64,000 nucleotides of DNA from a virus. A model generated the notes under the pieces. That model had not been told where the DNA came from. It did no database searches and worked only from the letters and a program-made list of their open reading frames with translations. The position numbers were made by a program, and so were the translations under genes. Position 1 is the first letter of the stretch. Every line of letters begins with the position of its first letter. Shown here in pieces: positions 3,241 through 57,900 of this stretch. The stretch covers positions 1-64,000 of the IMG/VR virus record IMGVR_UViG_3300017917_001903, one strand, 5' to 3'.

Positions 3241-3248
3241 TATTTATA
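3241..3248 (-). promoter_or_regulatory. T4-type late promoter, perfect TATAAATA
   Basis: Perfect match to the T4 late -10 box. Counting the usual five bases to +1 puts the start near 3235, only four bases upstream of the ATG at 3231. Confidence 0.7.
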
Positions 3249-3259
3249 TTCAGAGATGG

Positions 3260-3330
3260 CTGGCCCTCAAGGATTCGAACCTCGGCTGCCGGAATCAAAA
3301 TCCGGTGTCCTACCACTAGACGAAGGGCCA
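3260..3330 (-). tRNA. tRNA-Gln(UUG)
   Basis: Acceptor TGGCCCT/AGGGCCA, anticodon stem CCGGA/TCCGG with loop TTTTGAT, T-loop TTCGAAT, CCA encoded. Confidence 0.95.
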
Positions 3331-3335
3331 ATAAA

Positions 3336-3695
3336 TTATTTTGCTAAACTATGCTTGACGGGTTTACCGTCTTCATCGAGACACACAAAAACCATTTCGT
3401 CAATTTCAACTATGATGTTTTGTGTGGTTAAGTCTCGTACTTTTACTTCAATTGTTATGCTGGTGTTGCCAACTTTCTTAAGGGCTATACCAATTTCAAC
3501 AATATCACCTTGGCGTGCTGGTGCAACAAACTCAATTGCAGAAATGCTTTTTGTTACTACTTTTTTATGGCGTGCTTCGATGGCTGCATATATAACAGCT
3601 TCTTCATCTACCCACTGTAATAGCCTACCGCCAAATAGTGTGTTGTTAGCATTTAGGTCTTCGGGCTTTACTAATTTTCTCGTTAAAAACCGCAT
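3336..3695 (-). CDS. Hotdog-fold acyl-CoA thioesterase (YciA-like)
   Basis: A 119-residue single hotdog domain. The N-terminal pattern (NANNTLFGGRLLQWVDEEA, about 15-33) matches the YciA/acyl-CoA hydrolase group, in which the Asn and the GG..L...D helix form the active site; SAIEFVAPARQGD (about 52-64) fits the second half. Such enzymes release CoA from acyl-CoA. AGAGG lies 11 nt before the chosen ATG. The gene sits among tRNAs and close to the adenylating enzyme; together they could make and break an acyl thioester. The substrate cannot be read from the sequence. Confidence 0.8.
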   Translation of the reverse strand: MRFLTRKLVKPEDLNANNTLFGGRLLQWVDEEAVIYAAIEARHKKVVTKSISAIEFVAPARQGDIVEIGIALKKVGNTSITIEVKVRDLTTQNIIVEIDEMVFVCLDEDGKPVKHSLAK

Positions 3696-17777: not shown

Positions 17778-18130
17778 TTCTTTTGGCGTTGTGCGTTTTC
17801 AAAAAGATTTGCGGCGTCCGATACTCTACGACGCTTACGCTTACTCTTCATGTACTTGGAATCTGCTGGTGGCTTAAGTGGCCATTTGCCTGCTAGCTTT
17901 GCGCTTAATACTTCTTTCTGCCAACGCTTTTTAGCAGCATCTTTAAGACGCTTACGCTTTACGCTGGGCTTTTCAAAGAATTCGTGCTTGGCTAAATCTT
18001 TTTGCCAGTTGTTGCGCTCTAGGATCTTTTTCATCCTGCGGAGTGCGCCATTTACGTCGTTGTTATAAACTTCAACTTTAGAACCCTTAATTACAAATTC
18101 GTCATTTGGATTCTTGTTCCACTTTTTCAT
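17774..18130 (-). CDS. rpsU: Ribosomal protein S21 with long C-terminal extension
   Basis: KVEVYNNDVNGALRRMKKIL (about 18-37) and HEFFEKPSVKRK (about 49-60) match bS21, the small-subunit protein that helps mRNA binding at initiation. Cellular S21 is about 60-75 residues; here 118, with a basic tail ending in ...SKRKRRRVSDAANLFEN. S21 is the ribosomal protein most often found in phages and may bias ribosomes toward phage messages. The start lies inside clpX (29-nt overlap) and the stop overlaps the next start. Confidence 0.92.
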   Translation of the reverse strand: MKKWNKNPNDEFVIKGSKVEVYNNDVNGALRRMKKILERNNWQKDLAKHEFFEKPSVKRKRLKDAAKKRWQKEVLSAKLAGKWPLKPPADSKYMKSKRKRRRVSDAANLFENAQRQKK

Positions 18131-19391
18131 GTGTTCCTCTGTATAGCTTGTATTCTATGTCTTCGCGTTGTGTGTTATCAGCAAAAACCAACGTTGGTTT
18201 GGTATTTGCTGTCACTGGATACTTATCAAATAAAATCTTTTGTACACCTAATTTCTTGAGTTCCGGGGCGCGATACATTACGCTAATTAGGCTTTGTTCT
18301 ACAATACCTTTAAGTGCTCTAGCACCTAGGTTCTTCTTTACAGCAAGTTCCGCTGCTGTATTAATATACTCATTGCTAAATTCTAAATTAATATTATCCA
18401 TCTCTAACAATTTCTTGTTCTGCTCTAGGATACTATTTTTTACAGATTTTAACACATGCACCATGTGCGTGGTATCAAGTTTCTCAAGTGTAGCAATGAT
18501 AGGTAAACGACCTACAATCTCAGGAATCAAACCAAACTCGATAACGTCTTCGGCACTGAGACTTTCCAGTAACTTATTTCGTTCCTTGCGATCAATTACA
18601 GTAGCGTTAAAGCCGATAGTAGTACTTTTCTTCAATCGCTTTTCAATGATTTTTTCTATACCAACAAATGCGCCGCCTAGAATAAACAGTACGTTAGTAG
18701 TATCAAAGTCGATATATTCTTCGCCAAACTTTTTACCGCTATTAATTTTTACTTTAGTAGTAGTGCCTTCAATTAGTCTTAACAGGGCTTGTTGTACACC
18801 TTCGCCGCTGACATCTCTGGTAGCTGTATTCGTTTCACTGCGTCTTGCTTTTTTATCTACTTCGTCGATGTAAACAATTCCTTTTTGTGCAGCGTCAATA
18901 TCAAAGTCTGCAACATTAAGCAATCTCTCTAATACGCTTTCAACATCTTCGCCTACATACCCAGCTTCAGTGAGTGTAGTAGCGTCTGCTATAGCAAACG
19001 GAACATTTAGTTTCTTAGCTAATGTTTTAGCAAATAGTGTCTTACCTGTGCCGGTTGAACCAATTAATAAAATGTTTGTTTTTTCTAGTTCAACATCATC
19101 GGATGAATTAAGCACACGTTTATAATGGTTATATGCACTAACACACATAAGTTCTTTAGCACTGTCGTGTCCTACAATGTATTGATCTAAGTGCTGACGA
19201 ATCTCAAGTGGGGTAGGAATTGCAGTATTTTCGCTGTCAATTTTTTCTTCATCGGCAGTTTTCTTAACAATATTATAGCTTAACGTGATACATTCATTAC
19301 AAATATAAACGCTTGGCCCAGCTATTAGTTTGTCAACTGCTTCTCTATTTTTACCGCAAAAACTGCATCTTAGGTTTTTCTTGTCTGTCAT
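18102..19391 (-). CDS. clpX: ClpX, AAA+ unfoldase
   Basis: 429 residues, full length. The zinc-binding domain has Cys9, Cys12, Cys31, Cys34. Walker A GSTGTGKT is at 110-117, the pore loop GYVG at 143-146, Walker B IVYIDEVD at 171-178, arginine finger Arg294 and sensor-2 GARALK at 355-360. The IGF loop that docks on ClpP is kept (258-260), so it should work with host ClpP. The substrate loop that in E. coli is RKH reads GKKF here, which may change tag selection. ClpX recognises ssrA-tagged proteins, and a tmRNA lies at 56832-57255. No ClpP gene is in this window. Confidence 0.97.
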   Translation of the reverse strand: MTDKKNLRCSFCGKNREAVDKLIAGPSVYICNECITLSYNIVKKTADEEKIDSENTAIPTPLEIRQHLDQYIVGHDSAKELMCVSAYNHYKRVLNSSDDVELEKTNILLIGSTGTGKTLFAKTLAKKLNVPFAIADATTLTEAGYVGEDVESVLERLLNVADFDIDAAQKGIVYIDEVDKKARRSETNTATRDVSGEGVQQALLRLIEGTTTKVKINSGKKFGEEYIDFDTTNVLFILGGAFVGIEKIIEKRLKKSTTIGFNATVIDRKERNKLLESLSAEDVIEFGLIPEIVGRLPIIATLEKLDTTHMVHVLKSVKNSILEQNKKLLEMDNINLEFSNEYINTAAELAVKKNLGARALKGIVEQSLISVMYRAPELKKLGVQKILFDKYPVTANTKPTLVFADNTQREDIEYKLYRGTHEKVEQESK

Positions 19392-55398: not shown

Positions 55399-55899
55399 TT
55401 ATAGCTTTTTCCAAGCATCTGTAGCATCAAAGTCATTGGTTGGTAGATACTTAGTTGATGAACCGTCTTTCTTAGCGATTAGTTTTTGTTTACGGTTTCC
55501 ACCACCCTTCTTAATAGATGCGTGTACCCACCCCGAGTTCTTATCACCCTCTACATAAAATTCTAGGATAACTTGGTCAAACTCTAGGTTTTCAGAAACC
55601 CAGTCTGCAACAACCTTGTTGCTGATGCCTTGGATTTCAAAGTCAACAGCTTCACCGTTAACGTGCTGACTTGTTGTTGAACCACCAACTGCCTTGTTTA
55701 ATGCTGGGCAGCGATAGCTTGAATTGATTGTTATTGGTTTACCAAAATGAGCGCGAGCTGGCTCAAGGATCTTCTCGCAAACATAACGCATGTTTTCGAG
55801 GTGTTCAGGTGTGGGTGTGTTTGCAATACCCTTAGCTTTTGCTGTTGGGCTTGCTGTAAGCTCTTCAACTGTGAAGTGTTCAGTTAATTTTGTAGCCAT
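55399..55899 (-). CDS. Peptidase M15 family (D-Ala-D-Ala/L-Ala-D-Glu-type) endolysin
   Basis: 166 residues. SYRCPALNKAVGGSTTSQHV, NGEAVDFE (about 61-88) and GWVHAS (about 123-128) provide the His-Asp-His zinc set of the M15A family. It cuts peptide cross-links. Late box CATAAATA at 55932-55939 and GGAAGGAA before the ATG. Confidence 0.88.
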   Translation of the reverse strand: MATKLTEHFTVEELTASPTAKAKGIANTPTPEHLENMRYVCEKILEPARAHFGKPITINSSYRCPALNKAVGGSTTSQHVNGEAVDFEIQGISNKVVADWVSENLEFDQVILEFYVEGDKNSGWVHASIKKGGGNRKQKLIAKKDGSSTKYLPTNDFDATDAWKKL

Positions 55900-55957: not shown

Positions 55958-56057
55958 AAGTACTCGGTTTATCTCCGTCCGGTCGACACGGACTTGATCC
56001 TACTCATTGCCATCGCTGTGCGACAAACCTTACACCGAAAGGTAGGGCGGCAAATTC
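55958..56057 (-). ncRNA. Unassigned structured segment below tRNA-Thr
   Basis: About 100 gene-free bases with GTCCG/CGGAC and TCGC/GCGA hairpins and a long-range CGGT...ACCG pairing. Transcribed with tRNA-Thr. No family recognised. Confidence 0.3.
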
Positions 56058-56760: not shown

Positions 56761-56806
56761 TTTTATTTTCCTTATTAAAAAGCAGAAGTATTAGTTTCTG
56801 CTAATA

Positions 56807-56814: not shown

Positions 56815-56874
56815 GGGAAATTTTTACAAGTGCGATTTTTTCTGTTGCTAGGAAAAATCGCAAACCCCGGAGAA

Positions 56875-56922
56875 TTACGCTGCTAGAGCGTAATCACCAT
56901 ATGCAAAGTCATTATCGTTTGC
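56875..56922 (-). other. tmRNA tag reading frame
   Basis: GCA start (no initiation codon needed) to TAA, encoding ANDNDFAYGDYALAA. ANDN at the start and ALAA at the end follow bacterial tags; 15 residues is longer than the usual 10-14. Confidence 0.9.
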
Positions 56923-57001
56923 AGTTACTTTTTTTGGCACTTTGCCAGTCAATCAGTCTCGGCATTCCTATTCCGCGTCAATCGATCCTATTTCAGGCCC
57001 A

Positions 57002-57202
57002 TCATAAAAAAACTGCTGCTAGCGCAAGAAAAATAGCAAATGCAAGTAATGCTCTACCCCAATACTCTTGGTCGCTTTCATTGGGAATACTGCGACCATA
57101 ATATTTGTCTACTATCTTGTGCCATTCTGCTAATTCCTTGTCCGAGAGTGTCCCAGGAAAGTGATAGCCTCTCCAATATAAACGATTCTCTTCCTCAGTC
57201 AT
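57002..57202 (-). CDS. Small C-tail-anchored membrane protein inside the tmRNA intervening segment (66 aa)
   Basis: AAGGA seven bases before the ATG begins about five bases after the CCA of the acceptor piece, and the stop (TGA) ends one base before the 5' end of the coding piece. The protein starts MTEEENRLYWRGYHFPG and ends in one hydrophobic helix (ALLAFAIFLALAAVFL). No family recognised. It fills the sequence that is normally a short discarded spacer in permuted tmRNAs, so its mRNA would be freed by tmRNA processing. Confidence 0.65.
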   Translation of the reverse strand: MTEEENRLYWRGYHFPGTLSDKELAEWHKIVDKYYGRSIPNESDQEYWGRALLAFAIFLALAAVFL

Positions 57203-57261
57203 AGCAATTTCCTTATGGTGGACCTGCCCGGTACTGCCCCGGGGTCTTGCCGCTTTTATTG

Positions 57262-57900
57262 TCAGCTGTCAACAACTGATGTATTATTTAGTATTGTAAT
57301 TACGTCCTCAGCAAATTTATAGTGTGCAAGTTTTCCAGGATGCTCATTGTCTAACGCTGGAGAAAAATTAAGTGATATATCATTCATAAACACTTTTTCT
57401 ATTTTAGCTGTAGACCAACTAAATTTAACTATCATTCTCTTAGAAACTAAAAAGTGTAAAACTTTAATACCACGTTTTTTAAAATGTAAATCAGCATACT
57501 CAATTCTAGTATAAAGGTCAACGTTGGCATCATAGTCATCATATAGTGTATAAAAATGTTTAGTCGCTGGATCATCTGAATCAGCAGGAATGAAACGTTT
57601 AAATTTATTGGTAATGTGTGCATCTGCAGATTGTACAATGCAGGATCGTTCAGGGTACGTCCAAAGTATAACCACAATGTCATCATCTTGAAAAGCAAAG
57701 TTTTGTATCTTAAAAAGTATCTCTTTATTACTTGCGCCCGGAAAACTTGTGTTTATACATTCTCTTTTAAGATGCTTTGCAACCATAGCTGGCCAAGCAA
57801 ACGAACTAGGTTTACTAAGAGGCTTTTTTGCAACATGATCCCAACAGTCTGGTAAGCCGTGACCATATGTTAGACTGCATCCAAAGGTAATTAATCTCAT
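57262..57900 (-). CDS. SGNH-like protein (GCSLT type, 212 aa)
   Basis: FGCSLTYGHG (6-15) is the nucleophile block, NTSFPGASNKEI (about 50-61) the second, LWTYPER (about 79-85) the third, and DNEHPGKLAHYKFA (about 184-197) the C-terminal His block. Same type as the gene at 13222. Probably a glycan or lipid esterase. Its stop lies a few bases before the tmRNA acceptor piece, suggesting read-through into the tmRNA. Confidence 0.72.
   Translation of the reverse strand: MRLITFGCSLTYGHGLPDCWDHVAKKPLSKPSSFAWPAMVAKHLKRECINTSFPGASNKEILFKIQNFAFQDDDIVVILWTYPERSCIVQSADAHITNKFKRFIPADSDDPATKHFYTLYDDYDANVDLYTRIEYADLHFKKRGIKVLHFLVSKRMIVKFSWSTAKIEKVFMNDISLNFSPALDNEHPGKLAHYKFAEDVITILNNTSVVDS

Follow-up and report, generated by a model that had tools for sequence, protein, structure and literature searches.

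Small protein genes in the intervening segment of permuted phage tmRNAs

Introduction

In permuted tmRNAs, the segment that lies between the acceptor piece and the coding piece (the IVS) is cut out and regarded as waste. According to the 2025 tmRNA database paper (PMC11915505), two-piece tmRNA arises by tRNA-type processing; the paper mentions homing endonuclease genes in group I introns only and, as foreign elements in a permuted IVS, one tRNA-Ala gene and one repetitive element. The two-piece tmRNA of the cultured phage Melnitz has been described (PMC9004378), and at least part of that paper does not mention the gene in its IVS. In the open-access literature we found no account of a tmRNA IVS that encodes a protein, in agreement with an earlier sequence-only reading of the DNA analysed here, which knew of no described case. 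Protein genes in the IVS of phage tmRNAs appear not to have been described previously.

Results

A permuted tmRNA in the window

The window, a stretch of 64,000 nucleotides of IMG/VR virus record IMGVR_UViG_3300017917_001903, carries a circularly permuted two-piece tmRNA at 56829-57277 of the minus strand, as identified by Infernal/Rfam and ARAGORN (Table 1). In the Infernal search, which the sequence-only reading had proposed as a check, the models tmRNA_permuted (RF04321; 56875-57277 minus, 91.6 bits, gathering cut-off 47) and alpha_tmRNA (RF01849; 56829-57315 minus, 85.2 bits, gathering cut-off 50) both match across the two halves, and the 86,856-base virus record that contains the window yields the same tmRNA match. 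ARAGORN also calls a permuted tmRNA and reads the tag ANDNDFAYGDYALAA, which has an ALAA-type ending. The pairing test finds acceptor strands that pair at seven of seven positions (one of them G-U) across the IVS, a T-stem paired at five of five and an encoded CCA. The earlier assignment of a permuted molecule with the acceptor half first, a CCA end at 57216, a coding piece starting at 57000 with seven-for-seven pairing and a correctly ending tag is thus borne out. Compared with the viral contig L001 (the same as L045), the two halves are identical at 68/75 and 139/159 positions. A group I intron within the tmRNA was considered and rejected: the insert lies between the CCA and the coding piece, the T-arm is intact, and Rfam gives no group I intron match at the window.

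In about half of 140 viral tmRNA loci (L003-L178) the CCA end is preceded, at a distance of 70-80 nt, by the exact T4 late-promoter octamer TATAAATA; in a control stretch the figure is 2/140. A sigma-70 promoter scan gave no convincing site directly upstream of the window tmRNA. The degenerate late-promoter-like site and the terminator-like hairpin on the two sides of the locus suggest that the tmRNA and the IVS gene are probably a single late transcription unit.

Table 1. Positions of features at the tmRNA locus of the window
Feature	Positions	Strand	Basis
Degenerate T4-type late-promoter-like CTAAATAA	57284..57291	-	Spacing at which many related loci carry TATAAATA; exact octamer absent at this site
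tmRNA acceptor piece: T-arm, 3' acceptor strand, CCA 57218-57216	57216..57277	-	RF04321 and alpha_tmRNA matches, pairing test
IVS, 215 nt, not in mature tmRNA	57001..57215	-	Covariance models, ARAGORN, pairing test
IVS closing helix, 5' strand TAAGGAAATTGC; contains AAGGA 57214-57210	57204..57215	-	12/12 pairs including G-U with 57016-57005
66-aa gene, family A, C-terminal hydrophobic helix; stop UGA 57004-57002	57002..57202	-	ORF, dN/dS 0.076 vs L001
IVS closing helix, 3' strand GCAGTTTTTTTA; also the gene's last codons	57005..57016	-	Sequence, helix survey
TGAT facing the ACCA end; provides the gene's UGA stop	57001..57004	-	TGAT survey of viral IVSs
tmRNA coding piece: 5' acceptor strand GGGCCTG, GAAATAGGATCGA, tag frame, 3' part	56829..57000	-	alpha_tmRNA match
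Tag reading frame ANDNDFAYGDYALAA + stop	56875..56922	-	Sequence, ARAGORN
Intrinsic terminator-like hairpin 3' of tmRNA	56781..56802	-	Sequence scan

The IVS gene of the window

The IVS holds the complete gene that had been read in its roughly 215 bases. Its AAGGA lies 7 nt upstream of the ATG at 57202, and its UGA ends one base short of the tmRNA coding piece; the sequence-only reading had likewise given the gene a ribosome-binding site, this ATG and a stop one base from the coding piece. The length of the ORF has a p of 0.013 in shuffles of the window IVS alone, and its support is raised far above this value by the comparison with L001. The phage of L001 is related to the window phage (many proteins are 65-98% identical), and it carries the same tmRNA–IVS–ORF module at another locus, with an IVS that has no indels relative to that of the window. 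The two IVS proteins are 82% identical, and the 43 differences between the ORFs fall on codon positions 1, 2 and 3 in the proportion 10/4/29 (chi-square p = 7e-6), with a synonymous divergence of 1.52, a non-synonymous divergence of 0.12 and a dN/dS of 0.076. By this predominance of synonymous changes, the kind of conservation that had been named in advance as support, the window ORF is a protein gene under purifying selection.

A second, divergent group of loci (L012 and others) has inside the tmRNA IVS a 53-aa ORF that is 41% identical to the window protein over the C-terminal half, and all eight of the family-A relatives found are located in a tmRNA IVS. The window ORF has no family match in PHROGs, Pfam or NCBIfam; annotated phages searched with the DNA and protein of the window locus gave no match and no ORF relative, and family A has no relative among the 84,980 genomes of bacteria and archaea that were scanned. 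The AlphaFold model of the window protein (pLDDT 82, from three sequences only) consists of three helices, of which the long C-terminal one (residues 42-65) is strongly hydrophobic. The C-terminal membrane helix proposed earlier agrees with this model, and the protein is likely to be a small tail-anchored membrane protein. Our best guess for its role, by analogy with other small phage membrane proteins, would be superinfection exclusion or lysis timing. A holin-like role for family A is unsupported: L001 has the module elsewhere, and there is no holin family match.

Viral IVSs house many unrelated genes

Pattern scans of viral contigs, mostly metagenome-assembled, that select one tmRNA signature gave at least 171 loci of permuted tmRNAs whose acceptor strands pair, comprising 138 distinct IVSs of 5-511 nt. 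Among those listed, 62 of the 138 distinct IVSs reach a length of at least 95 nt, and ORFs fill many of these. When ORF lengths were compared with dinucleotide shuffles and each family was represented by its worst-case value, 20 of 46 units fell below 0.05 (2.3 expected; Fisher p about 1e-14). The genes belong to at least six families that are mutually unrelated by BLAST (A-F), plus singletons. On this sequence survey the window arrangement, first noted as one without a described counterpart, recurs in viral tmRNA loci with many unrelated genes.

Family B (WHILLTVC...) is modelled as a beta-beta-alpha-beta fold (pLDDT 87), for which Foldseek gives no match at E <= 0.001, and family C is a membrane protein of 44 aa. 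In three IVSs (L134, L155, L167) a conserved acidic ORF of 23-25 aa precedes and overlaps the family-C gene. The dN/dS of families B, C and E is 0.08-0.31 in most pairs; within family B, two close pairs reach 0.5-0.7 on few changes, and more distant ones lie at 0.13-0.42. One of the singletons, in the 511-nt IVS of L021 (3205-3715), is a LAGLIDADG endonuclease gene (Pfam 24.2 bits, cut-off 23.1).

Scans with families B and C gave 190 and 221 relatives, of which, among the best 80 each, about 29 (B) and about 62 (C) are IVS-located. The other family-B members among the best 80 of 190 are mostly free-standing, some of them upstream of a tmRNA by a few hundred bases; since family B occurs in both settings, genes must enter or leave the IVS. 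No match was found in annotated phages searched with families C and E and the L100 ORF, and family C has one match in bacterial and archaeal genomes, on a MAG contig resembling a T4-like phage. In the cultured phage Melnitz (MZ577097, L346 at about 3247-3388), the 142-nt IVS has an unannotated 54-aa ORF that runs from its ATG into the coding piece. Melnitz also has a free-standing family-B gene just upstream of its tmRNA.

The closing helix and the signals of the gene

Viral IVSs have a conserved closing helix of 9-12 bp, in which nucleotide i pairs with nucleotide -(4+i) with clear covariation. Nine of its pairs are formed in 91% of cases, compared to 68% (sd 1.4) when the 3' ends are shuffled among sequences. 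In 95 distinct viral IVSs of at least 25 nt, the four bases that remain between the helix and the coding piece are TGAT, which faces ACCA. An SD motif is present in the helix region of 30/35 ORF-bearing IVSs, as against 2/21 long ORF-less IVSs (Fisher 2e-8) and 5/57 short ones (Fisher 5e-14). In 18 of 39 ORF-bearing IVSs the UGA of the TGAT terminates the ORF and leaves one base to the coding piece; in another 12 of the 39 the ORF runs on and stops within the coding piece. Energy models of the RNA, which contain neither ribosomes nor proteins, predict the SD to be unpaired at 0.21 in the full precursor and 0.52 in the nascent RNA (0.00 and 0.53, respectively, for the window).

Presence and absence across phages and bacteria

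The nearest tmRNA relatives of the window (L017 and L058) have a non-coding IVS of 71 nt, and in L017 the genes that neighbour the window tmRNA are present in the same order. The window gene is therefore not required for the tmRNA, and the short non-coding IVSs of such syntenic relatives imply that IVS genes come and go. The sequence-only reading had named, as what would contradict it, related phages with a short non-coding spacer and a decayed ORF; the spacer does exist, but no decayed ORF is seen, which points to gain or loss of the gene and not to decay. On a tree of the tmRNA body, the label 'has ORF' changes about 30 times, with at least 15 changes forced by well-supported branches. Clustering of IVS genes on this tree is no better than with shuffled labels, which fits fast turnover and also a weak tree.

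Among the genomes sampled from the alphaproteobacterial class, 105 of 115 have a match over the cut-off, nearly all of them short. Of the eight longer bacterial matches opened, the sole convincing ORF is on a MAG contig with T4-like phage genes. In this Rickettsiales contig (L353, PALK01000009.1) the IVS gene is of the L100 family, and ribonucleotide reductase, heme-oxygenase-like and Rieske-like ORFs recognised by eye make the contig look like a T4-like phage. As the convincing ORF of the bacterial sample is limited to a phage-like contig, IVS genes look like a viral phenomenon.

Other genes of the window phage

The window phage is of marine type and has more than 30 tRNA genes in the window. 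An Rfam COG2908 RNA match (56008-56052 minus, 70.3 bits, cut-off 58.7) adjoins tRNA-Thr, and an endolysin gene is located at 55399-55899. ClpX is the unfoldase that reads tmRNA tags. The 429-aa product of a clpX gene at 18102-19391 of the minus strand scores 523 bits against an NCBIfam cut-off of 359, and Walker motifs, a GYVG pore loop and an IGF loop are recognisable in it by eye; of 20 other viral records that bear a tmRNA, 3 contain the ClpX zinc finger. ClpP and SmpB were not found in the virus record of the window. The phage ClpX suggests an investment in tag-directed proteolysis.

Discussion

We consider it probable that the window contains a functional permuted tmRNA whose IVS has been colonised by a small gene, and that the transcript is first an mRNA and is then processed to two-piece tmRNA. 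Ribosomes would load on the nascent RNA before the 3' strand of the closing helix is synthesised and would read up to one base before the RNase P site. Once they are gone, the closing helix and the acceptor stem would form and conceal the ribosome-binding site, and RNase P and 3' nucleases would excise the IVS to give the two-piece tmRNA. Translation of the IVS would, we infer, precede or compete with tmRNA maturation, and in this way the IVS protein would be functionally linked to the processing of the tmRNA. The IVS would tolerate inserts because it is discarded, and phages could therefore repeatedly acquire, lose and swap small genes there.

One alternative is an ORF that arose by chance in a conserved non-coding spacer, and the shuffles of the window IVS alone are not extreme. 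However, divergence from L001 is biased towards synonymous changes and third codon positions, and homologues with 41% identity persist in divergent tmRNAs, so that chance is barely credible. The tmRNA could conversely be a relic, with the protein gene alone being of consequence: phage tmRNAs are dispensable in principle, and no SmpB gene was found in the record. The conservation of both halves in L001, the perfectly paired acceptor and T-stem and the intact, in-frame tag make this very improbable.

Slightly less than an even chance is given to a real gene that has no part in how the tmRNA is made, the IVS being an insertion-tolerant site and the position of the ribosome-binding site in the helix having no regulatory effect. 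It would account for the many unrelated families in the IVS, the LAGLIDADG endonuclease included, for free-standing family-B genes such as the one adjoining the Melnitz tmRNA, and for the short non-coding IVSs of close relatives. It sits less well with an SD that, with compensating G-U pairs, is placed in the closing helix far more commonly than in ORF-less IVSs, and with ORFs that so often stop precisely one base short of the coding piece, although compact space alone could explain both placements. A more far-reaching version of the mRNA-then-tmRNA proposal, in which IVS genes are regulated by and in turn regulate tmRNA maturation, strikes us as rather unlikely. The ribosome-binding site in the helix would make translation and RNase P cleavage mutually exclusive, and ORFs that stop in the coding piece would form a self-limiting loop; if so, maturation of these RNAs, that of Melnitz among them, would leave a stop-less message, the tmRNA's own substrate.

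Small genes under selection recur in the IVS of phage tmRNAs and escape annotation because the region is labelled tmRNA; their products are phage proteins that had not been listed before. Their turnover would offer a mechanism for gene exchange within an essential-type RNA gene, and the locus a testable case of a transcript that serves as mRNA before it becomes a ribosome-rescue RNA.

The window locus shares the order of acceptor piece, IVS and coding piece, the signatures, the tag and the acceptor pairing with the alphaproteobacterial permuted tmRNA (RF01849/RF04321), but in bacteria no convincing gene is present in the IVS among the longest matches opened. Melnitz (PMC9004378, MZ577097) is likewise a marine phage with a permuted tmRNA and an ORF in the IVS; unlike in the window, this ORF is of another family and terminates within the tmRNA. 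Group I introns with a homing endonuclease (PMC11915505) also place a protein gene in a removed part of the tmRNA transcript. They are self-splicing and interrupt the T-loop, whereas the phage insert is the IVS of the permutation, removed by tRNA-type processing, and its genes are mostly not endonucleases. The IVSs with a tRNA-Ala gene or a repeat (PMC11915505) similarly contain a foreign element, but these are single cases without a protein gene, whereas the phage IVSs carry many gene families under selection.
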